A stretch of DNA of 55,688 nt, from IMG/VR virus record IMGVR_UViG_3300029952_000027, positions 1 to 55,688 of that record. The stretch is one strand, 5' to 3'. The notes under the pieces were generated by a model. The model was not told the origin of the DNA, searched no databases, and saw only the letters and a list, made by a program, of their open reading frames with translations. Shown here piece after piece: positions 1,978 through 55,688 of the stretch (positions are counted from its first letter, which is position 1; each line of letters opens with the position of its first letter). The translations under genes were made by a program, and so were the position numbers. Source of the stretch: a virus.

Positions 1978-2705
1978 CCTGAGCGCACTCCTTTGCCCCA
2001 GCCCCATAGATTAGCGCCGGAGCCATTGGCAAAATAGGGGAAGCTCCACGGCGCCCCGCCGCGCCCAAAGCCACGGTTAGCAATATCGCGCGCTTTGCTG
2101 ATCCGCGCCCTGAACCTCTTCGCGTGAACCATCGCCAACGCGGCATTGCTGAAGGGCTTACCCGGCTGCTCATAAAGACGTGTCAACGTGCCGTCCAGCA
2201 ACCCGTCAAACCATTGACTAAGTTGCACATCCGGTATTACCGGCGTGACAATCGTTGGCCGCAGCCCCACAAATATATGCAGCGTGCCACCTGCGCTATT
2301 CGGTTGTGGCACGAGTGTTATGAGCCCCGACAGGTTGAACGTGTACACTTGCGGTGTGTTGACTTCCGCAGCCGCCGTATCGGAGACTGCTGCCACGGGC
2401 GCCAGTGATATATCGTTGAACCGCACGTCCAGAGGCGCCACGACTTCAGCCCCTGTGATCACGGTGCCACCAGCGAGCCACCCCGCTGTGCTAACGGTCG
2501 TAGTTGGCGCCGCGATGGCTAGGCTCTGGTCATTTTGCCACGCCAAGCTCTCAGAGAAGAAGTCACGGGCCGCTTGCAAAAACTCTATCTGCATTTGCTC
2601 GTCGGTCACACCAGCGGCGCGTACCCGAATGGTATTCCACATCTGCTGGAGTGTGGCTGATGGCGATGCACCAAATAGCGGCGGCGATGAAATTACCCCG
2701 CTCAT
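1974..2705 (-). CDS. putative neck/tail-adaptor structural protein
   Basis: 243 residues. It follows the 125-residue adaptor with a 4-base ATGA overlap and precedes the fibre gene with the same overlap. The N-terminal third contains a helical segment (QMQIEFLQAARDFFSE) seen in podophage neck proteins; the C-terminus is Gly/aromatic-rich (NRGFGRGGAPWSFPYF). Operon position between the capsid/adaptor genes and the tail fibre suggests a head-tail joining role. No enzymatic motif. Confidence 0.5.
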   Translation of the reverse strand: MSGVISSPPLFGASPSATLQQMWNTIRVRAAGVTDEQMQIEFLQAARDFFSESLAWQNDQSLAIAAPTTTVSTAGWLAGGTVITGAEVVAPLDVRFNDISLAPVAAVSDTAAAEVNTPQVYTFNLSGLITLVPQPNSAGGTLHIFVGLRPTIVTPVIPDVQLSQWFDGLLDGTLTRLYEQPGKPFSNAALAMVHAKRFRARISKARDIANRGFGRGGAPWSFPYFANGSGANLWGWGKGVRSG

Positions 2706-3079
2706 CTAGCTGCTCCTGCCATGCCAGTCAGCCGCTGCACGAACCGTCCCATGAAGGTGGCTGCCCGGCTATCATCCGTGTAGGTGTCATCGCGGCTCTC
2801 CGCGCGCCCTATGACATAATCAATGAACGCCGGTACATACTGCCAAGCGATCGGAAACTGAGCATTGGCGAGCGCCGATGTCACCAGAAACGGCGTTGTG
2901 TCGAGCCCCATCGCCAAAAACAAATCCGGCCTCAACGCACGCGCATCGGCCATGGCTTCTGTCAGCGCAAAATAAAGCTCAGCATCCTGGTAGCGATATG
3001 GCGTTGCCTGGTCCTGCACAATGGTGCGAACCTGGGTAAGTATTTGCCCATAGGTGAAGCCACTCTGCGAGCCCGACAT
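2702..3079 (-). CDS. head-tail adaptor protein (DUF6682-like)
   Basis: 125 residues. The pattern ILTQVRTIVQDQ, then PYRYQDAELYFALTEAM and DARALRPDLF, matches the helical adaptor family of podophages (DUF6682/gp6-like), which joins portal and tail. It lies immediately downstream of the major capsid gene. The start is preceded by an AGGA-type ribosome site. The family assignment is by eye. Confidence 0.6.
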   Translation of the reverse strand: MSGSQSGFTYGQILTQVRTIVQDQATPYRYQDAELYFALTEAMADARALRPDLFLAMGLDTTPFLVTSALANAQFPIAWQYVPAFIDYVIGRAESRDDTYTDDSRAATFMGRFVQRLTGMAGAAR

Positions 3080-3150
3080 GGTTCATTTCCTTTCCTGGTG
3101 GGTCTCACGAAGCGGCTGCATCCGTGAGGTTTCGGCCCCCTGGTGGAAAG

Positions 3151-4119
3151 TTAGAGCGCGCCGGTGTTCGGCGTGGCGTAGAGGCAGGCGATGGCCGTGC
3201 CATCCACCACCTTCGAGCCGTAAATCTGCAAACCGCGCAGCAGCGTGCCAAAGGTCTGTTCGGAGCGCAGCGTCTCGATCTTGCTGATCTGCGAGGCGAA
3301 CGTCAGCCCATGGCTGTGCCCGGCGAAGACATACCAAGCGTTGTCCACCGAGGAGGTGGGCAGCAGGTTGGACGAATACAGCGTAAAGCGGTCGATCATG
3401 CCCAGCAGCCCGTTGCGCAGGATACTTACGCCATCGCCGGAAATGGATACTTGGCGCAAATCAGACTTCTTGATGAAGCCTGCCATCCACGAAGGGATGA
3501 CCAACCAGCGACCCTGCTCGGGGATATTCTGCTCGTCAAGAACCGTCCCAAGGTCGATGATGTAGTTCAGAATGTTCGTGTTATCCATGATCACCGGGTT
3601 GCCCGCGAGTGTGGGGTTGGCGTTCGGGGCACCGAGGTTGAATTTGCCCGTGATCTTACCGGCGGTGAGGCCGGTATTATACGAAGAAATACCGGCATAA
3701 ATGGTTGCCAGCACAGCGGTGTCGATGGTGATTTTCAACTGCTGCGCCGCGTCGTCCGCCCACATGCTCATCATGTTGATGTCGGATTGCACCGCGTACA
3801 CATCATCTTCAACCAGGTTGAAGTAATAACCGTTGGAGATTGAGAGCACCACTATGTTGCTGGACGGGCGCTGAACCACCAACGCCTGATCCGCCGAATA
3901 GGCGTTGATCGTGATGGTGGGTTTGGTGCGGATGTTAACCGTATCGCCCTGGTTCTTGATTTCGCCTTCGTAATCGGTGTTGCTGATCGCGGCCAGAACG
4001 GTCGCGTTATAGAACTTCTCAATCAGCTTGCCCGACCAAATCTGCGGGATGAAGGTGCCGGAGTAAGCCGGGCTCGCGGCGGAACCAAGATACGGGCTGC
4101 CACTTACGGGATACGCCAT
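3151..4119 (-). CDS. major capsid protein
   Basis: 322 residues, the size of a compact HK97-fold coat protein. The order portal - small proteins - scaffold - this gene - adaptor is the classical head module. Sequence features of phage coat proteins include the N-terminal FIPQIWSGKLIEKFYNATVL, the central NTDYEGEIKNQGDTVNIRT and the WLVIPSWMAGFI segment that is typical of P22/N4-like coat families. There is no separate protease gene, so assembly probably relies on the scaffold. Confidence 0.85.
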   Translation of the reverse strand: MAYPVSGSPYLGSAASPAYSGTFIPQIWSGKLIEKFYNATVLAAISNTDYEGEIKNQGDTVNIRTKPTITINAYSADQALVVQRPSSNIVVLSISNGYYFNLVEDDVYAVQSDINMMSMWADDAAQQLKITIDTAVLATIYAGISSYNTGLTAGKITGKFNLGAPNANPTLAGNPVIMDNTNILNYIIDLGTVLDEQNIPEQGRWLVIPSWMAGFIKKSDLRQVSISGDGVSILRNGLLGMIDRFTLYSSNLLPTSSVDNAWYVFAGHSHGLTFASQISKIETLRSEQTFGTLLRGLQIYGSKVVDGTAIACLYATPNTGAL

Positions 4120-4166
4120 TGAAAGCTCCTGTGTTTGCAGGAGCCCTCAACGGGGCCCCCTGCTGA

Positions 4167-5243
4167 TTACTGTTTAATGCGGCCTTCGGCTTGCGCCATC
4201 ATGAGGTCCGCCTCGTATGCCCGCTGCTCGGCTTCGCGCCCGACAAATTTGCCGCGCCGCACGTCATCGTAAAAGCGGGTGATGTCTTGAGAAGACCAAA
4301 TGTTCTTCGGCTCTTCCACCTTAGCGGAAGCAGAAGCCCCCCGTCCGGGGGCGGCAAGGGCTTCGAGCGGCAGTTTTGGGGGCTGGTTAGCGCCCGGCGC
4401 ATGCGGCACACCGGCTCTTGCGTTTGGTGCTGCGCCATTATTAACAAAAAGTTTGAAGAATGCAATAACTCTTTGTGCATCATTTTTGTTAAATGCGTCA
4501 ATGAGTAAGTCGCGCCGGGGTTGCCCGCTCAACACATCGGTTTCGCCGCACCAGTTTAGGAAGCCCTGATCGGTATTGATGAACTTCCAATCTGGCATAA
4601 GCGCGTCCATGTCAGCGTAGAACATTTCCTTTGTCGCAGCGGCACGGGTCTGCGTGGTCGCGGTCATACCCGCCTGAAGCGCCTGCATCTGCATCTCAAG
4701 CCGGGCGGTTTCCTGGCGGGCAATGATAGCAGCGCGGCGGTTCACCATGTTCAGCAGGTCAGGGCCAAGGGTTTCAACCTCTTCCGGCGTCAAATCGGGA
4801 AGCGGGCCAAGCGGCGGGGGTGCCGGATTGCGCGCCGCATTCTCCAGAAGCACGAGCCGCGAGGTCAAGTCGGCCAGTTGGGTTTCAGCAGCCTCGGCGC
4901 GGCGCAGGTAAGCGCGGGCCCGCCCCTGCTCGGAACGGAACTGGTGCTCCCAGTTCTGGTCGCCCGGTGGCGTCTCGATGTTACTCTGCGGAGTAACCGG
5001 CGGGGGCGGTGGTTCGATGCCAGGGAGGTTGGGCTGGAGCGGTGGTTCGACAACGGCGGCGGGGGCTGTCGGGAGCGCGTTGGGGTCCACTGGCGGCGCT
5101 GCATTGGCAGCAGCCACCGCCGCATAGTGCGCTTCAATCTCGGCGGATGCTGCCAGCAATGCTTTCGGGCGGTGCTGGGTGATAACCACCGGCGGCAATG
5201 CTGCATCGGTTCCGGCGGCGTAGTCTGATTTAGCTTGCGACAT
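4167..5243 (-). CDS. scaffolding protein
   Basis: 358 residues, Pro/Ala-rich and disordered N-terminus (1-110), coiled-coil helix (~125-200) and a C-terminal segment with FYDDVRRGKFVG and a final EGRIKQ, matching phage scaffold C-termini that contact coat protein. It is directly upstream of the major capsid gene. The start has AGGAG eight bases upstream. The disordered linker holds one copy of the genome-wide 18-bp palindrome, read as VTPQSN. Confidence 0.75.
   Translation of the reverse strand: MSQAKSDYAAGTDAALPPVVITQHRPKALLAASAEIEAHYAAVAAANAAPPVDPNALPTAPAAVVEPPLQPNLPGIEPPPPPVTPQSNIETPPGDQNWEHQFRSEQGRARAYLRRAEAAETQLADLTSRLVLLENAARNPAPPPLGPLPDLTPEEVETLGPDLLNMVNRRAAIIARQETARLEMQMQALQAGMTATTQTRAAATKEMFYADMDALMPDWKFINTDQGFLNWCGETDVLSGQPRRDLLIDAFNKNDAQRVIAFFKLFVNNGAAPNARAGVPHAPGANQPPKLPLEALAAPGRGASASAKVEEPKNIWSSQDITRFYDDVRRGKFVGREAEQRAYEADLMMAQAEGRIKQ
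4980..4997. repeat. 18-bp palindrome TTACTC-N4-GAGTAA (site 1, inside scaffold gene)
   Basis: GTTACTCTGCGGAGTAAC. On the coding (minus) strand it reads V-T-P-Q-S-N in the disordered linker of the scaffold. It is one of about ten dispersed copies. Confidence 0.85.
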
Positions 5244-5258
5244 GGTATGCTTCTCCTG

Positions 5259-5468
5259 TTAGGCTTTGTTGAGCGTGACGTTAATGTCACGGATCATCTG
5301 CGCACGGCCTTGCACCCTGGTCAGTTGATCTTGTGGCGACCGAACGAGCGCCTCGGCGGCTTCGGTCTCCACCGCTTTCAAAGCGGTTAAAAATTCCTTC
5401 CATTGGTCGCCAGCAACGAAGTGAAGGCGCTTCGCCACTTCCAGTAATGCAGTGTCAGCATTGGCCAC
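5259..5468 (-). CDS. small helical hypothetical protein (69 aa)
   Basis: 69 residues predicted largely helical (begins MANADTALLEVAKRLHF). It lies just upstream of the scaffold gene in the head operon. No motif recognised; it may be a minor head component. Confidence 0.6.
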   Translation of the reverse strand: MANADTALLEVAKRLHFVAGDQWKEFLTALKAVETEAAEALVRSPQDQLTRVQGRAQMIRDINVTLNKA

Positions 5469-5756
5469 TTAAATGGGCACAATGCTGGGCTGGCTGCTGT
5501 CAATGGCCGGGCCGCTGGGGTCCACCGGCGGCGTAATCTCTGCGGGTGTGGGGCGGATCGGCGGCGAGCCGTTCTTCGCATAGATATTGCGCGTGCGCGC
5601 TTCCTGCGAGCCGCCGGTCGTCTTGGCCATGGGGTTGCCCATGTAATTCAAAACCTCCTGCGTGCTGCCCTTGCCGGTCAGCGCGATGTGCTTTTCGGGG
5701 AAGTTGGCACTGTGGCCATCTCCCGTTTTTGGGTAAGAACGTAAACTTTCAACCAT
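5469..5756 (-). CDS. small hypothetical protein with R-x-Y-P-K motif (95 aa)
   Basis: 95 residues from ATG 5756, which overlaps the stop of the upstream gene as TAATG; a longer frame from 5834 would run back into that gene and is rejected. The N-terminus (MVESLRSYPKTGDGH) shares an R-x-Y-P-K-[ST] motif with the proteins at 6063-6281 and 54050-54235. The C-terminal third is Pro-rich. Function unknown; head-operon position suggests a minor virion protein. Confidence 0.6.
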   Translation of the reverse strand: MVESLRSYPKTGDGHSANFPEKHIALTGKGSTQEVLNYMGNPMAKTTGGSQEARTRNIYAKNGSPPIRPTPAEITPPVDPSGPAIDSSQPSIVPI

Positions 5757-6058
5757 TACGGCATCTCCACGATTAGCGAGCCTGTCCCCCCAACGGAGAC
5801 ACGGGCACGAATTTTTTTGTATTTGTAATTGCATGCTACCATTGCAGGCGCAGTTTGAGTGGTAATTGTGTGCCAGCGGCTGGAACTATCGGCAACCGAT
5901 AGTGGGTCCGGTGAGCACTCAACCACCACGGTTGCGCCTGAGAACGTGCCATCAATATAGATGGTCGGGGTGTAGTCCTTCCACAAACTAGACACATCGT
6001 TGTATTTTGCCGATGTGCCAGTTTGTGCTGACGCGGTAGGTACGTTAAGAAGCTGCAT
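5756..6058 (-). CDS. hypothetical beta-rich protein, possible minor virion protein (100 aa)
   Basis: 100 residues with alternating beta-strand character (YTPTIYIDGTFSGATVVVE, later YKKIRARVSVGGTGSLIVE), resembling small capsid-decoration or fibre-base domains. It lies in the portal-to-scaffold interval, where decoration proteins often occur. No specific family recognised. Confidence 0.6.
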   Translation of the reverse strand: MQLLNVPTASAQTGTSAKYNDVSSLWKDYTPTIYIDGTFSGATVVVECSPDPLSVADSSSRWHTITTQTAPAMVACNYKYKKIRARVSVGGTGSLIVEMP

Positions 6059-16203: not shown

Positions 16204-16436
16204 ACGCCGTCGAAACATCCCAACTCGCTGCCGCGCTGAGAGCCCGTGGGCTGATCGTTGGCAAGCGCGACTATAACCGCAACACAGCTTTCCAGGGCTG
16301 TTGGATGGTGGCTGAGCCCATAGCAAGATCAAAACTCCCTACACACGACGCCAGCGACGGCGCTTATTGTGCGGTGGGGTTCAACCTCGTACTTCTTATG
16401 GAAGAGGCACAAATTTATTTTGAGGTGGAGTATTAA
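16200..16436 (+). CDS. small hypothetical protein (78 aa)
   Basis: 78 residues beginning with a helix ([20 protein letters not shown]) that resembles a small HTH or helicase-adaptor fold, ending in strands ([18 protein letters not shown]). Coupled to the upstream gene by ATGA. Immediately followed by the first Gly-X repeat gene. Function unknown. Confidence 0.55.
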
Positions 16437-16437
16437 A

Positions 16438-16920
<483 letters not shown>

Positions 16921-17260: not shown

Positions 17261-17579
17261 ATGACAAAAGACAACGGTATGGAACAAGTAATGGCTGCGC
17301 GGCTGAGTGAGCCAAACCACAAGCACCCTATGGTGGGGCGCCGCTGCTTGGTGCGCACCTATTCCGCAGGCGTGCATATCGGCGACGTGTTGCACGTGGA
17401 TGGCATGGAGGTTCATCTTATGAACGCGCTACGCTTGTGGAAGTGGGAAGGTGGGGGGCTCTCATTATCGGCTGTGGCGAACAACGGTATTAAGGGTGGC
17501 CGACTTAACTACACACATGAAGTGTACCTAACAAACGCCATCGAAATAATCCCCACCACAGAAGTTGCCGAGGCCAGCT

Positions 17580-17608
<29 letters not shown>
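17261..17608 (+). CDS. hypothetical protein (115 aa)
   Basis: 115 residues with a good ribosome site (AAAGGA) after the 52-bp hairpin. Beta-rich middle ([20 protein letters not shown]) suggests a small barrel. The last 29 bases overlap the start of the second Gly-X repeat gene, and that same 3' segment reappears as the leader of the third copy. Function unknown. Confidence 0.6.
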
Positions 17609-18038
<430 letters not shown>

Positions 18039-21183: not shown

Positions 21184-21417
21184 ATGCTCCGTTTTAAAGT
21201 GCAAGCGGGCAAAACCCCCTTCAAAAATCCTTGGGGTGACGAAACTAGCTGGATAGAAATAGAGGCTGCAAACTTGCAGGAGTGCCTGATAAAAACCAAG
21301 GTTAAGCACCCAGGCGTGCCCATACTCATGGTGTTCATGATGAAGCGGCGGCTTTCCGGCGAAAGATCGTTTGCCGTGGATGAGCTTGTGTTCTCAACAT
21401 TTGAAGAGATGCCATGA
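21184..21417 (+). CDS. small paralogous-family protein (77 aa)
   Basis: 77 residues directly after the upstream stop. FKVQAGKTPFKNPWGDETSW, then IEAANLQECLIKTKV and PILMVFMMKRR give the same strand - helix - strand order as its neighbours. Stops one base before the third Gly-X gene starts. Function unknown. Confidence 0.6.
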   Translation: MLRFKVQAGKTPFKNPWGDETSWIEIEAANLQECLIKTKVKHPGVPILMVFMMKRRLSGERSFAVDELVFSTFEEMP

Positions 21418-21418
21418 C

Positions 21419-21883
<465 letters not shown>

Positions 21884-24569: not shown

Positions 24570-24871
24570 GCATCCTACAGGAGCTAAAGAGCTACGTCGA
24601 TGACATCATGGTCGACAAATACGGGCGCCTAGACGGCCCCCTGCCGTGGCCCGAAGAACCTACCGTTTCTGAGGATCACGTTGGGAAAGAGTTCACGCTT
24701 GGGCCGAAATATGCTCCGCTCGACGGATGCGCGGTGCGGATCATGGCTCTAACCGGCTACGAACGTATGTGTAACTCATACACGGCTGTTATTCTGGATG
24801 GACCTTATAAGGGTAGTGACATTAGCACCACCCCGCGCGAGCCCGCATTAAACGATGCGATTAGCAAATGA
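24566..24871 (+). CDS. hypothetical protein (101 aa)
   Basis: 101 residues with AGGAG eight bases upstream. Helical N-terminus then a beta-rich part (FTLGPKYAPLDGCAVRIMAL, later YTAVILDGPYKG) like a small barrel. Overlaps the polymerase start by four bases (ATGA). Function unknown. Confidence 0.6.
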   Translation: MSILQELKSYVDDIMVDKYGRLDGPLPWPEEPTVSEDHVGKEFTLGPKYAPLDGCAVRIMALTGYERMCNSYTAVILDGPYKGSDISTTPREPALNDAISK

Positions 24872-27633
24872 GGCGGGCGTATTTGGATTTCGAGACATAT
24901 TACTCGAACGAGTATTCACTGTCGCGCATGACGCCTGCCGAATACATCAACGATCCGCGTTATGAAACACTGGGCGCTGCGTGTGCATTCAACGACGAGC
25001 CCGGTGTGTGGCTGGAAGACCAAGACCTGGCTAACTGGATCGCCAGCGTGGGCAACGAGCCGACCATCATCTTCTCGCACAATGCGCTGTTCGATGCGGT
25101 CATCATGGCGTGGAAATACGGGCTCAACCCCACACTATGGGGCGACACGCTGGGGATGGCGCGCGGCGTGCTGAATGGGGTGCTGAAGCGGTTCAGCCTG
25201 GCGTCTGTGAGCGAGCATCTGGGGCTTGGGCACAAGGGCGGCACGGTGTTGAGTATGAAGGGCTACAACAAAGCAGCTTTGCATGCCAACACCGCGCTTT
25301 ACGCCGAAGCTAAGGCATACGCCATCAATGACATGGACCTATGCCGCAAGATCGAGCGCGCTCTGGCACCGAGCTTTCCGGTGGAGGAATATCTGACAAT
25401 AGACACGCTCATTAGAGCCGTGACTGAACCGATGCTAATGCTGGACATGCCGTTGGTGTACACGCACATCCAGCAAATACAGCAGCGCAAGCTAGAACTG
25501 CTCCAAGCAGTTGCGTTAGACGTGCCTGCTACTCTGATGAGCAACCAGAAATTTGCGGAGGCTTTGGAAAATCTCGGCGTTGAGCCACCCATGAAGATTT
25601 CCAAAACCACCGGCAAAGAGACCTATGCGTTTGCCAAGACCGACCTCGCCATGGAAGAACTTAGCGAGCACGAAAACCCGAAGGTTCAGGCGCTGGTGGC
25701 GGCGCGGCTTGGCCACAAATCCACACAGGAAGAAACCCGCAGCCATCGGTTTATCGCCGTGGCGCAGGCGTGCAATCAGATGATGGTGGCGCCCATGGCG
25801 TTCTCGGCGGCGCACACGCACCGCTTAGGCGGGACGTGGAAGATGAACATGCAGAACCTAGGCCGCGATAGCTTGTTGCGCAAGGCGCTGGTGGCGCCTC
25901 CGGGCTACAAGGTGGTGTCGGTTGATGCGTCCCAGATCGAGGCGCGGCTGGGTGCATGGCTGGCCGGATGGGAGTGGCTGCTTGACCAGTTCCGTGACCC
26001 AACACAAGACCCGTATTCAAACTACGCCACCATGCTCTTTGGTTTTCCCGTGTCGAAGGCCAACAAGTTGGAACGGTTCGTGGGCAAGCAGAGTATTTTG
26101 AGCTTGCAGTATGGCGCTTCGTGGCGGTCTTTCCAGCGCATGTGCCGCGTTATGGGTGGCATTTACATTACTGAAGAAGAAGCAAAAAAGTATGTGTCTG
26201 ATTATCGGCGGCTTGCTAAACCCATAACAAACTACTGGAAAGTTGGCGGTAGTTTTATTGAGGCAATGCACGCTGGCAACACGATAACGCACAAATGTTT
26301 ATTCACTTCCAAAGAAAAAATACACTTGCCTAGCGGATTGAGTTTGCGCTATCCTGATCTATGGTATGAGAAGGTTGCCCGTGGCGAACAAATGTTCGGG
26401 CAGTCGCAAGAAGGCACAGAGCAGCTTCAAAAGTTTTCGGGGTGGCGCTATGGCGACGGCATAGGGTTGTTCGGCGGCAAGGTCATGGAGAACTGTATTG
26501 GCTATGGAACATTAGTTCTCACGCAACGCGGTTGGGTGGCAATACAATCAGTTGGCAAGCAGGATATTTTATGGGATGGTTGTGCGTGGGTAGGGCACGC
26601 TGGCGTGGTCTGTAAGGGCGTTCAGGACGTGCTCTTTGTAGATGGTGTGAGCATGACGCCAGACCACGAAGTAGCAACCGAGAAAGGGTGGGTTAATGGC
26701 GCCGCGTGCGAAGGACTTATCAGGGAAGGTATCACACTTCCTTACTGCCATAAGCCCCGCTGGAACGAACGGGGCCAAGCGGATGTGGTTGGTTCGGTGC
26801 GTGTGTGGTGCACAAAAGATAATGCCCGGAACGGACTTCTTGAAGGGCAAAGCGAAACCGTGTGGCTGCAAGCGCACGGAGCTAATCAGCTTAGCCAACT
26901 CAAGCCACGGCATGTCGAAGCACCCGGCATATTGGGTATGGCGGTCGATGCACGACAGGTGCAGGCTGCCAACACATCAGGCTTGGGCAAATTACGGCGC
27001 GCGTGGTATACGGGTGTGCTCGCGGTGGGGAAAATTCTCAACCTTTTGGCAAGACATGGGGCAAACATACACACCAGGGCTGACCTTGGAGCGACTGAAC
27101 AACAACGGCCACTACACACCGGGAAACTGTCAGTGGGCCACACATCGCGTTCAGGGGAACAACAAACGCAACAACCACACCATAGAAACCCCGTGGGGCT
27201 TGCTGACAATATCGGAGGCAGCACGCCGTTCTGGAATAGGCCGGAGCACACTAGCCAACCGAGTAGTAACGGCTCCCCCCTCTGCGTGGTTCACCAAGCC
27301 GGACGTAAGGAACAGGTTTTCGATGTCCTAGACGCTGGGCCGCGCAATCGGTTCGTGGTGCTGGGCGAAACAGGACCGTTTGTGGTTCATAACTGCTGTC
27401 AGGCACTGGCTGCCGTGATCGTGAAGAGCGCGGGCGCCCGCATCCGGCGCAAGCACAAGATACCCTACAAGTTACAGGTCCATGACGAGCTTGTTTACGT
27501 GGTGCCGGAAGAGCAGGCGCAGTGGCTCAAAGAAACCGTGATCGCGGAAATGAGTGCGTCACCGCCGTGGGCACCCGACATACCCCTTGCTGCCGAAGGT
27601 GGCGTGGGCGACAATTATGGGGAGTGCAAATAG
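24868..27633 (+). CDS. family-A DNA polymerase with 3'-5' exonuclease, interrupted in frame by an intein
   Basis: 921 residues, ~621 after splicing. Exonuclease motifs: Y-L-D7-F-E9-T, FSHNALFDA and YAINDMDLC. Polymerase motif A VSVDASQIEARLG (~residues 350-362), motif B RFVGKQSILSLQYG, motif C KLQVHDELVYVV after the intein. The intein occupies residues 543-842, between M-E-N and C-C-Q-A-L, in the helix just before motif C, a strongly conserved site. The spliced enzyme would be the phage replicative polymerase. Starts within the upstream stop; a 46-codon gene follows. Confidence 0.9.
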   Translation: MRRAYLDFETYYSNEYSLSRMTPAEYINDPRYETLGAACAFNDEPGVWLEDQDLANWIASVGNEPTIIFSHNALFDAVIMAWKYGLNPTLWGDTLGMARGVLNGVLKRFSLASVSEHLGLGHKGGTVLSMKGYNKAALHANTALYAEAKAYAINDMDLCRKIERALAPSFPVEEYLTIDTLIRAVTEPMLMLDMPLVYTHIQQIQQRKLELLQAVALDVPATLMSNQKFAEALENLGVEPPMKISKTTGKETYAFAKTDLAMEELSEHENPKVQALVAARLGHKSTQEETRSHRFIAVAQACNQMMVAPMAFSAAHTHRLGGTWKMNMQNLGRDSLLRKALVAPPGYKVVSVDASQIEARLGAWLAGWEWLLDQFRDPTQDPYSNYATMLFGFPVSKANKLERFVGKQSILSLQYGASWRSFQRMCRVMGGIYITEEEAKKYVSDYRRLAKPITNYWKVGGSFIEAMHAGNTITHKCLFTSKEKIHLPSGLSLRYPDLWYEKVARGEQMFGQSQEGTEQLQKFSGWRYGDGIGLFGGKVMENCIGYGTLVLTQRGWVAIQSVGKQDILWDGCAWVGHAGVVCKGVQDVLFVDGVSMTPDHEVATEKGWVNGAACEGLIREGITLPYCHKPRWNERGQADVVGSVRVWCTKDNARNGLLEGQSETVWLQAHGANQLSQLKPRHVEAPGILGMAVDARQVQAANTSGLGKLRRAWYTGVLAVGKILNLLARHGANIHTRADLGATEQQRPLHTGKLSVGHTSRSGEQQTQQPHHRNPVGLADNIGGSTPFWNRPEHTSQPSSNGSPLCVVHQAGRKEQVFDVLDAGPRNRFVVLGETGPFVVHNCCQALAAVIVKSAGARIRRKHKIPYKLQVHDELVYVVPEEQAQWLKETVIAEMSASPPWAPDIPLAAEGGVGDNYGECK
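26494..27393 (+). mobile_element. intein in DNA polymerase (300 residues)
   Basis: Residues 543-842 of the polymerase frame. Block A starts with Cys (CIGYGTLVLTQRGWVAI); block B is GVSMTPDHEVATEKGW with T-x-x-H; block F is VFDVLDAGPRNRFVVLG; block G ends VVHN with Cys as +1 residue. All residues for class-1 splicing are present, giving ...VMEN-CCQALAAV... as the mature joint. The middle in this frame looks like nonsense (Gln/His/Gly-rich) because it is the shadow of an HNH endonuclease in another frame. Confidence 0.9.
26696..27331 (+). CDS. HNH homing endonuclease encoded out of frame inside the intein
   Basis: 211 residues in frame 2 relative to the polymerase/intein frame. N-terminal zinc ribbon (C35-x-C37, C56-G-C58) after DLSGKVSHFLTAI, central YWVWRSMHDRC...NYGARGIRVC, then the conserved HNH-family block LERLNNNGHYTPGNCQWATH (131-150) with NNKRNN, and a C-terminal HTH-like segment (LLTISEAARRSGIGRSTL). 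The order and length match complete free-standing phage HNH endonucleases. GAAAGGGTGGG precedes the ATG. It overlaps intein residues 610-822, running into block F, so both frames are coding. Confidence 0.85.
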   Translation: MAPRAKDLSGKVSHFLTAISPAGTNGAKRMWLVRCVCGAQKIMPGTDFLKGKAKPCGCKRTELISLANSSHGMSKHPAYWVWRSMHDRCRLPTHQAWANYGARGIRVCSRWGKFSTFWQDMGQTYTPGLTLERLNNNGHYTPGNCQWATHRVQGNNKRNNHTIETPWGLLTISEAARRSGIGRSTLANRVVTAPPSAWFTKPDVRNRFSMS

Positions 27634-29909: not shown

Positions 29910-30195
29910 ATACCATGTTGCTCTGGCGCCGTTCACGGTGACTATAATGATCGGGGAACGTGTGGCCAGTACAGCACTACCCGACCAGGCTGCCGTGCTT
30001 GCGTTCATGAAAAAATTCGCCGGACGACTACCCAATAAAAGTGAGGGTATTACGCTGCTCGCCATGGCAGAAGACACACTGCAAAACCCGCTCCAGCATT
30101 ATTGGTGTGCCTCGGCAGACGGTTGGCGCTTTTCATTTTCTGGCAGCCTTGGTGAAGGCGCGGGCAAGTTACGGGAAGAAAAAACACATGCTTGA
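29902..30195 (+). CDS. hypothetical protein (97 aa)
   Basis: 97 residues from ATG 29902. Strands (YHVALAPFTVTIMIGE), a helix (QAAVLAFMKKFAG) and a Trp-rich C-terminal part. May belong to the same loose small-protein family as the 20.7-23.4 kb genes, but similarity is weak. Overlaps both neighbours by eight bases. Confidence 0.55.
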   Translation: MPKYHVALAPFTVTIMIGERVASTALPDQAAVLAFMKKFAGRLPNKSEGITLLAMAEDTLQNPLQHYWCASADGWRFSFSGSLGEGAGKLREEKTHA

Positions 30196-31747
30196 TGTCA
30201 TACTATCCGCGAAGCACCAAGCCCTTATTGTGCCATACTCCGACGAGATGGCGGCGGTTTTCACAGGCGTGGCGCGCGAGGTACAGTACCAAGGTTCGCG
30301 CCGCCTGGTGGTGCCGCACAACGCATTCAGCCACCGCGTGTTCCGCGAGCAAGGTGTCGCGCTAAAAACACCCATTGAAAATTTTTACGACTGGTGCGGT
30401 GGCACGCCCTTTGCTGTTCAGATCGCCAGCGCGGCGATGCTGACAACGCAGCAAAGAGCATATCTTTTGAACTCATTCGGGACCGGAAAAACGCGCACTG
30501 CTTTATGGGCAGCACACTTCCTAATGCTGCAAGGCCAGATCAGGAAGGTGCTGGTTGTGGCGCCGCTTAGCACGCTGCAATCCACTTGGGCGCGCGAGGC
30601 ATTCCGCACGGTGCCGGGGCTGCGCGTCAGTGTAGTGTACGGCACACGCGAGCAGCGGCTTAACGCGCTGAATAAAGACGCTGACATCTACCTCATTAAT
30701 CATGACGGCGTGGCCACGGTGCTGGCCGAATTGCGCGCCAAGAAAAATCTCGACCTAATCGTGCTGGATGAACTCGCGGTGTATCGCAACGGCAGCGCGC
30801 TGCGCACGAAGAACATGGGTAAACTCTGCACGCAAAACAAATGGGTCTGGGGCCTAACCGGCGGCCCGATGCCGAACGATGCCATGGATGTGTGGTCTCA
30901 ATGCCGCCTCGTGACACCATGGACGGTGCCGAGCACGCAGCGGGCATGGAAAGATCGCACCATGATAAACGTAGGTCAGTTCACATGGGTTGCGAAACCC
31001 AATGCCACGGCCCAAGCCTACGCCGCCATGGTTCCCTCCGTGCGCTACACGCTGGACGACATCATGGAGCTACCGGAACTTATCGAGCGCCAGGCGCAAG
31101 TCACACAGTCGGTGCAACAGGCCGACATATACAAAGAACTATGCCGCCGGTTGGTGGCAGATGTAAACCAGACGCAGGTTGAGGCCATCAATGAAGCGGC
31201 TAAAATCACAAAGCTGCTTCAGATTTCGTGCGGCGCCGTGTACACCAGCAAGGGTGCAGTAGAGCTTGACCCTGGCGACAGGCTAGATGTATTGCTCGAC
31301 ATAATTAGCGAAACACAAAATAAAATAATTGTGTTCGCCACGTATAAGCACGCCGTCGCAATGGTGGGCAGGCATCTCGACGCCAACCACATAGCGCATC
31401 GTACTGTCACTGGCGACACGCCGCATAAAGAACGCTCAGATATTTTCAATGAGTTTCAGGATAACCCATTCGGCCCGCGCGTGCTTTTAGCTCATCCCGT
31501 TTGCATGGCGCATGGCCTAACGCTCACAGCCGCCGACACTATCGTTTGGTATTCTGCTATATATGACCTGGAGATTTTTGACCAGGCTAACGCACGCATC
31601 CGCCGTGTTGGGCAGAAGCACAAGCAGCAGGTTGTCATGCTGTGCGGCACGAAGGCCGAGGCCGTGGCGTACAAGCGTCTTCAATTAAAGCAGAAGATGC
31701 AAGGGAGTTTACTCGAAATGTTTGAAAACAATACGAAAGGAAGTTAA
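30188..31747 (+). CDS. SNF2-type superfamily-2 DNA helicase
   Basis: 519 residues from ATG 30188; the frame extends upstream over the previous gene but that part is its shadow. Motif I FGTGKT (97-102), Ia VLVVAPLSTLQSTW, motif II DELA (194-197), motif III VWGLTGGPMPN, motif V/VI region AHPVCMAHGLTLTAADTIVWY and QANARIRRVGQKHKQ. These are hallmarks of phage SNF2-like helicases, which remodel forks or recombination intermediates. Sits between nuclease and ssDNA-binding-like genes. Confidence 0.9.
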   Translation: MLDVILSAKHQALIVPYSDEMAAVFTGVAREVQYQGSRRLVVPHNAFSHRVFREQGVALKTPIENFYDWCGGTPFAVQIASAAMLTTQQRAYLLNSFGTGKTRTALWAAHFLMLQGQIRKVLVVAPLSTLQSTWAREAFRTVPGLRVSVVYGTREQRLNALNKDADIYLINHDGVATVLAELRAKKNLDLIVLDELAVYRNGSALRTKNMGKLCTQNKWVWGLTGGPMPNDAMDVWSQCRLVTPWTVPSTQRAWKDRTMINVGQFTWVAKPNATAQAYAAMVPSVRYTLDDIMELPELIERQAQVTQSVQQADIYKELCRRLVADVNQTQVEAINEAAKITKLLQISCGAVYTSKGAVELDPGDRLDVLLDIISETQNKIIVFATYKHAVAMVGRHLDANHIAHRTVTGDTPHKERSDIFNEFQDNPFGPRVLLAHPVCMAHGLTLTAADTIVWYSAIYDLEIFDQANARIRRVGQKHKQQVVMLCGTKAEAVAYKRLQLKQKMQGSLLEMFENNTKGS

Positions 31748-55293: not shown

Positions 55294-55688
55294 TTATACC
55301 CAACCGAAACCCGGAATTGCTTTCAAGCCAGCCAAAATGGTTTGCAGCAAATTGACACCGGCTTTCACAGAGGTTTGGTCAGCTTCGGGCAGCATGGCGA
55401 TCACTGGCGCCGCGTTGGCAGCCAGTGCCGTCACCGCACCAGCGGCGATTTCCAGCGGTGCCTGATGGCTGGCCGTGGACGCCAGAATGGTATTGGCGAC
55501 ACCTTCCGCTGCCGTGATACCGGCGGCGACGCCACCACCAATCGGGCCGCCGAGAGCCGTCAGCGGAAGAAATTCATTCACGATGCCTTCGACGGTGGTG
55601 GCCTCTTTTTGGGCACTCGTGGGCACGGGCGCCGGGGTCGGGGTTGGCTGAACTTCGGGGGTCGGGGTTGGCTGAACTTCGGGGGTCG
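55294..55688 (-). CDS. 3' part of junction-spanning Pro-rich repeat protein
   Basis: The C-terminal ~118-126 residues of the gene starting at 99. The end of the PTPEVQPT array leads through PTPTPAPVPTSAQKE into an Ala/Gly-rich hydrophobic domain (LTALGGPIGGGVAAGITAAE, later AAGAVTALAANAAPVIAML) and ends GLKAIPGFGWV. With the repeats the whole protein is about 150-158 residues. The hydrophobic helices and the following lysin gene suggest a holin-like or virion membrane role, but no family is clear. A GTG at 55626 could give a shorter form. Confidence 0.6.
   Translation of the reverse strand, partial: TPEVQPTPTPEVQPTPTPAPVPTSAQKEATTVEGIVNEFLPLTALGGPIGGGVAAGITAAEGVANTILASTASHQAPLEIAAGAVTALAANAAPVIAMLPEADQTSVKAGVNLLQTILAGLKAIPGFGWV
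55648..55688. repeat. 24-bp tandem repeat at the right end; terminal overlap
   Basis: The last 41 bases are identical to bases 1-41 (one full 24-bp unit plus 17 bases). This is either an assembly overlap in a circular contig or a very short terminal redundancy. Confidence 0.9.

Follow-up and report, generated by a model that had tools for sequence, protein, structure and literature searches.

A phage DNA polymerase intein that probably doubles, in a shifted reading frame, as an HNH homing endonuclease gene

The DNA polymerase A (PolA) gene of the phage sequence analysed here very probably contains a dual-coding mobile intein, that is, a splicing domain read in the polymerase frame whose DNA carries, one base out of phase, the gene of an HNH endonuclease. 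The sequence, referred to below as the window, is the whole of IMG/VR virus record IMGVR_UViG_3300029952_000027 (55,688 bases); the positions of the relevant features are compiled in Table 1. According to the model that we propose, the polymerase frame would specify the splicing domain of a mini-intein composed of blocks A and B, a roughly 175-residue unfolded linker, and blocks F and G, and this intein would excise itself after translation and thereby restore the polymerase. The linker DNA would be the homing endonuclease gene, equipped for separate translation with a start codon of its own, a Shine-Dalgarno sequence provided mostly by block B codons, and a stop codon provided by blocks F/G. 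The free HNH protein would cut intein-free alleles, the repair of which would copy in the whole intein.

Table 1. Features of the intein-interrupted polymerase gene and of the HNH gene nested within it.
Feature	Position in window	Strand	Details and evidence
Phage DNA polymerase A (3'-5' exonuclease/polymerase) ORF, intein-interrupted	24868..27633	+	921 aa; Pfam DNA_pol_A E=1.4e-28; PHROG 17 E=7.5e-69
N-extein, C-terminal end ..FGGKVMEN	24868..26493	+	Aligned through ..KVMEN with intein-free L179 (78% aa identity)
Predicted intein, polymerase frame, Cys1 to His-Asn, class 1 signature	26494..27393	+	300 aa; 36-copy alignment; PDB intein profiles; AlphaFold2/Foldseek
Block A (CIGYGTLVLTQRGW)	26494..26535	+	36-member alignment
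Block B (GVSMTPDHEVATEKGW)	26644..26691	+	36-member alignment; E-K-G-W codons double as HNH Shine-Dalgarno
Shadow linker, polymerase frame	26767..27294	+	Intein residues about 92-267; predicted unfolded, pLDDT about 35
Block F (VFDVLDAGPRNRFVVL)	27316..27363	+	36-member alignment
Block G (GPFVVHN)	27373..27393	+	36-member alignment
C-extein, first residue +1 Cys	27394..27633	+	Glu at matching position in empty L179
Predicted HNH endonuclease ORF	26696..27331	+	211 aa, ATG; PHROG 374 'HNH endonuclease' E=7e-54; AlphaFold2 pLDDT 91
Shine-Dalgarno-like AAAGGGTGGG of HNH gene	26683..26692	+	Duplex about -7.4 kcal/mol; just upstream of ATG
HNH zinc-ribbon-like N-terminus CxC...CxC	26798..26869	+	Cys35, 37, 56, 58 invariant or nearly so in A1/A3
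HNH core motif LERLNNNGHYTPGNCQWAT	27086..27142	+	Alignment
HNH helix-turn-helix-like C-terminal tail	27206..27265	+	HTH_8 E=0.006 (below cut-off); helices 172-179, 183-192

Sequence conservation and predicted structure identify the PolA insert as a class 1 intein that would be expected to splice. The initial annotation had placed the polymerase frame at 24868-27633, the HNH frame at 26696-27331 and the splice junctions at Cys543 and His-Asn842/Cys843, and all of these positions proved exact (codons 26494-26496 for Cys543, 27391-27393 for Asn842 and 27394-27396 for Cys843). Blocks A, B, F and G, including the TxxH motif of block B, are conserved in an alignment of 36 inteins, in which Cys1, T55, H58, D277, G282, F287, N300 and C301 are invariant. 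The intein ends with HN in 90 of 95 copies and with SN in five, and the +1 residue is Cys in 94 and Ser in one of the 95. A profile built from the intein alignment matched the solved inteins PI-MtuI, NEQ068 and Spl DnaX; seven intein members matched TIGR01445 (intein_Nterm), and the sister copy L051 scored above the cut-off for Pfam Intein_splicing and PT-HINT. The window intein alone matched no Pfam Hint model and received no intein call from Pfam or NCBIfam. Its AlphaFold2 model has a pLDDT of about 95 at residues 1-80 and 271-300 and of about 35 at residues 92-266, which agrees with the earlier proposal that the middle of the intein is a non-folding shadow of the other frame. The top 29 Foldseek matches of this model were inteins or Hint/Vint domains (probability of at least 0.92; best E=1.4e-3).

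The product of the nested ORF is predicted to be an HNH-family endonuclease, presumably able to cut DNA. Its ATG begins at the second position of a polymerase codon, and its stop codon, TAG, lies within block F. In addition to PHROG 374 the protein matched PHROG 3377 (E=2e-43) and, weakly, I-HmuI (E=0.035); a Foldseek search with the HNH model gave no useful match. The first residue of a canonical HNH catalytic core is histidine. Here the core reads L[DE]Rx[DN]N..Y...NC.W, with arginine at the usual position of the first histidine, as is also the case in the free-standing members of the family. Profile searches in both frames are in line with the description, given in the initial annotation, of a complete HNH gene located out of frame in a mini-intein.

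Codon shuffling indicates that the openness of the polymerase frame over the HNH gene is not due to chance. When the codons of the window HNH gene were shuffled synonymously, the polymerase frame was free of stops in 0.5% of the shuffles, with 4.9 stops expected and none observed; for 46 embedded HNH genes the corresponding figures were 283.5 and 0. The matching frame of 123 free-standing HNH relatives contains 1693 stops. Likewise, a third-position T preceding AA, AG or GA, which would create a stop, was found at 0 of 2059 sites in the 46 embedded genes, as compared with 26% in the 123 free-standing ones. Outside the HNH gene, paired relatives differ mainly at the third position of polymerase codons, and inside it mainly at the third position of HNH codons; this shift in the substitution pattern coincides with the HNH start and stop. 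The absence of stops and this switch substantiate the claim that 636 bp are dual-coding.

Within the overlap, changes that are synonymous for the HNH protein and nonsynonymous for the polymerase exceed the reverse type by 39:8, 55:15, 107:21 and 85:20, i.e., about four-fold in the closest pairs. Because of this excess, and because identity at 4-fold sites of the shadow linker is near saturation, the overlap is governed by the HNH frame, with the polymerase frame being held there only to staying open. Selection on the hydropathy or sequence of the shadow left no sign. The comparison by frame, which the initial annotation had suggested, shows what is under selection: the splicing blocks and the sequence of the HNH protein are maintained and the polymerase frame is kept open, while the amino acids of the linker are not preserved. 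All 66 distinct HNH ORFs detected through intein similarity were intact, a count based on loci that were ranked by intein similarity and that could therefore favour intact copies.

How the HNH protein is made can be judged from the region preceding its conserved domain. Ahead of this domain the HNH frame contains a stop codon, at a median distance of 10 codons. The gap between the two contains an ATG or GTG at 92 of 92 loci (33% expected) and a classic slippery heptamer at two of 92. With the start chosen as the best among up to four candidates, a Shine-Dalgarno sequence of -4 kcal/mol or stronger was present at 45 of 45 loci (29% background). This signal seems to be largely a by-product of the amino acids of block B (TEKGW in the window); its observed strength was -7.2, compared with -5.5 under a null of synonymous recoding. 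Start and Shine-Dalgarno sequence lie in or just past block B, and the stop of the HNH gene is found within block F or block G. Canonical inteins have their endonuclease fused to the splicing domain, and a programmed frameshift near block B, from the N-terminal half of the intein into the HNH frame, would yield just such an ordinary Hint-HNH fusion. The intervening stop, the universal presence of start codons and Shine-Dalgarno sequences and the scarcity of slippery sites argue against this possibility, which we regard as unlikely. Because of these same four observations, separate initiation at the gene's own start codon is the most likely mode of translation, as the initial annotation had envisaged.

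The arrangement is not confined to the window. Scans of IMG/VR and GTDB contigs and of named phages, followed by a strict recount, revealed the same layout at 128 loci, 126 of them in the phase of the window (phase 1; 93 distinct HNH sequences) and two in the other phase; as the relatives were gathered by similarity, these numbers describe a collection and not an unbiased survey. A count of 160 loci obtained with an intein profile was discarded, given that free-standing HNH genes are picked up by this profile too, through their shadow frame. Two of 48 initial open frames were likewise dropped, namely L060, which is devoid of intein motifs, and L106, which is decayed. The latter is an Arsenophonus prophage with an APSE-type element (3089-4237) in which the HNH frame is broken and the polymerase ORF truncated; it is the sole broken copy. 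The initial annotation had regarded as critical any relative that had lost the HNH frame but kept the polymerase frame; such relatives were sought, and none was present among those collected. A sequencing frameshift, the other concern raised there, is ruled out by the identical phase in unrelated phages and prophages.

Dual-coding inteins occur in PolA, in SNF2 helicases and in one terminase-like gene, and they are found in prophages as well; among plasmids no near DNA match was detected. In PolA, three insertion registers are used within a single motif (GGK/CxEN, GGKx/CEN and GGKxxEN/C). A tblastn search of named phages with the HNH protein uncovered the layout in Shewanella phage SFCi1, in Caulobacter phages GB2A, RW, RLK and KcrB, and in APSE phages. 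The polymerase alone is annotated in these genomes, except for a shortened P46 in APSE-1. P46 (L002, 3992-4642) is annotated from an internal ATG as a protein of 140 aa; the ORF extends up to a GTG following block B (216 aa). In a further relative, L008, the polymerase ORF (2192-4018) opens with a stretch (..VYDIKNCGPRHRFSANGRLVHNS) that represents the C-terminal half of another intein, and this polymerase may thus carry two inteins.

The first 46 embedded HNH proteins form one clade in the HNH tree (SH-aLRT 91; 87/82 in a smaller, careful tree). The elements of phase 1 most likely have a single origin, from which they spread between distant phages and between genes. The two loci in the other phase, L176 (Vibrio phage 97.13; 3022-3876) and L273, contain a related intein and are inserted in PolA at KVxELA/[CS]GYGG, which is different from the sites used in phase 1. 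That same site is occupied in L177 by a 140-residue mini-intein lacking an HNH gene. An AU test did not reject one clade for both phases; in this broader tree the phase-1 set requires two changes instead of one. Invasion of a mini-intein by an HNH gene is the likeliest polarity, rather than the opposite one.

Comparison of phages with and without the intein, as had been recommended, revealed empty sites. The intein-free polymerase of L179, 78% identical to that of the window, reads KVMEN/ECQALA, as compared with KVMEN/[CIGYG..VVHN]/CCQALA in the window; the alignment thus points to a precise insertion, along with which the +1 residue became Cys. The SNF2-like helicase gene of the window (30041-31747) has an uninterrupted KLLQISCGAVY at a site that is filled by the same type of element in L036, L038 and L056. 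Hence, the phage of the window has its PolA site filled and its SNF2 helicase site empty. The window HNH protein is 58% identical to copies in Alicyclobacillus prophages whose polymerases are only 26% identical; polymerases with 70% identity can carry elements with HNH proteins that are 47% identical and located at different registers. This mismatch between polymerase and HNH similarity and the empty sites are compatible with homing. Pseudomonas phage Rollin (L175) contains a free-standing HNH-like gene (5127-5768) directly after an intein-free polymerase, which is possibly aimed at neighbouring polymerase alleles.

An HNH gene hidden out of frame in another phage gene has been reported before. 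Arsenault, Gosselin and Gogarten (2025; PMC11855218; see also phage Applejack, PMC12613952) described the ShiLan domain and the Pacc40 insertion. The ShiLan authors found an out-of-frame HNH in a DNA methylase, could assign it to neither intein nor intron, and did not find a ribosome binding site. Common to these cases and to the elements studied here are an out-of-frame HNH within a stop-free insertion in a phage gene and a patchy, mobile distribution. By contrast, the ShiLan insertion is devoid of intein motifs and a Hint fold, whereas the elements described here have a complete predicted splicing domain and a ribosome binding site and reside in PolA, helicase and terminase-like genes. The precedent of an out-of-frame HNH without splicing motifs (PMC11855218) raises the question of whether the PolA insert, too, is a non-splicing loop which is tolerated by the polymerase and in which the HNH gene homes alone. 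We consider this very improbable, as practically every copy retains blocks A, B, F and G, Cys1, HN/SN and the +1 Cys/Ser, an intein fold is predicted at high confidence, and the insertion interrupts a conserved PolA motif, GGKxxENxxQA, in which the polymerase would probably not accommodate a loop of 300 residues.

Canonical inteins carry in-frame endonucleases, which frequently degenerate, and the HNH ORF could accordingly be the non-functional remnant of an in-frame endonuclease that was displaced by indels. The strong purifying selection in the HNH frame, the intactness of the 66 copies mentioned above and the absence of an in-frame relative from the collection make such an origin extremely unlikely. 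Phage introns carry HNH genes as well, but a group I or II intron with an ORF is practically inconceivable in view of an Rfam search without a match at E<=1, the intein blocks, and a polymerase frame in which no embedded copy has a stop anywhere along the element. The dual-coding intein is the favoured explanation.

Homing endonucleases are normally encoded in frame with an intein or inside an intron. Like large inteins such as PI-SceI and those bearing an HNH, the window-type element has splicing residues of class 1, encodes its endonuclease between blocks B and F, and has relatives with empty sites; it differs in that the endonuclease is a separate protein encoded in another frame and the in-frame middle is an unfolded shadow. 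The splicing fold is that of mini-inteins (Mtu RecA mini-intein, Spl DnaX, Ssp DnaB, L177), which, however, are endonuclease-free and have a short linker. Free-standing phage HNH proteins (PHROG 374) belong to the same family and have the same succession of zinc-ribbon-like region, HNH core and HTH-like tail, yet the corresponding frame of their genes has many stops, and they are not nested in an intein. In fractured genes, which Dassa et al. reportedly described in 2009, a free endonuclease gene is located between the halves of a split intein. There, too, the endonuclease is a separate protein between intein halves, but the host gene is split in two, whereas in the window a single ORF runs through and overlaps the endonuclease gene.

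The P45/P46 genes of APSE-1 (GenBank AF157835) represent the same element and are annotated as overlapping CDSs; no description of them as a dual-coding intein was found. Our literature searches yielded no paper on an out-of-frame endonuclease in a true intein, with priority being uncertain in view of a preprint that could overlap (10.1101/2025.01.02.630785, 'Actinobacteriophage Inteins: ... Non-Canonical Architecture'). Subject to that uncertainty, an out-of-frame endonuclease within a true intein is apparently an undescribed arrangement. The initial annotation had suggested a new arrangement on the basis of one phage; the true intein with its out-of-frame HNH stands, while the notion of a single case gives way to 128 loci, and the hidden HNH as such was already known from ShiLan (PMC11855218).

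Two further features of the window concern its repeats. Three similar genes (16369-16920, 17565-18038 and 21371-21883) contain long 6-base repeats of the CCGGAG type, which encode Gly-Ala/Asp/Arg runs, and have a common C-terminal tail. The same 24-base tandem repeat is present at both ends of the record (1-90 and 55634-55688), which suggests that the genome is terminally redundant or else circular and complete.

Beyond the window, we are inclined, with some reservation, to think that a large and old class of inteins divides its two tasks between frames: splicing would be assigned to the host frame with its meaningless linker, and homing to a separately translated HNH protein in a shifted frame, for which the splicing blocks would supply the ribosome binding site and the stop. 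The overlap would entrench the endonuclease and slow the decay usual for homing genes, since any indel that shifts the frame, or deletion that breaks it, would ruin the polymerase as well, and the arrangement would have arisen, or changed phase, at least twice. In an important phage gene, a selfish element is written in two reading frames; it has reached many phage lineages and has largely escaped notice, as in most annotations nothing but the polymerase is recorded. Its occurrence suggests that a long non-folding linker is tolerable in inteins. With about 90 natural variants at hand for the study of dual coding, it becomes testable whether a selfish gene is shielded from decay when it overlaps a frame that is essential.
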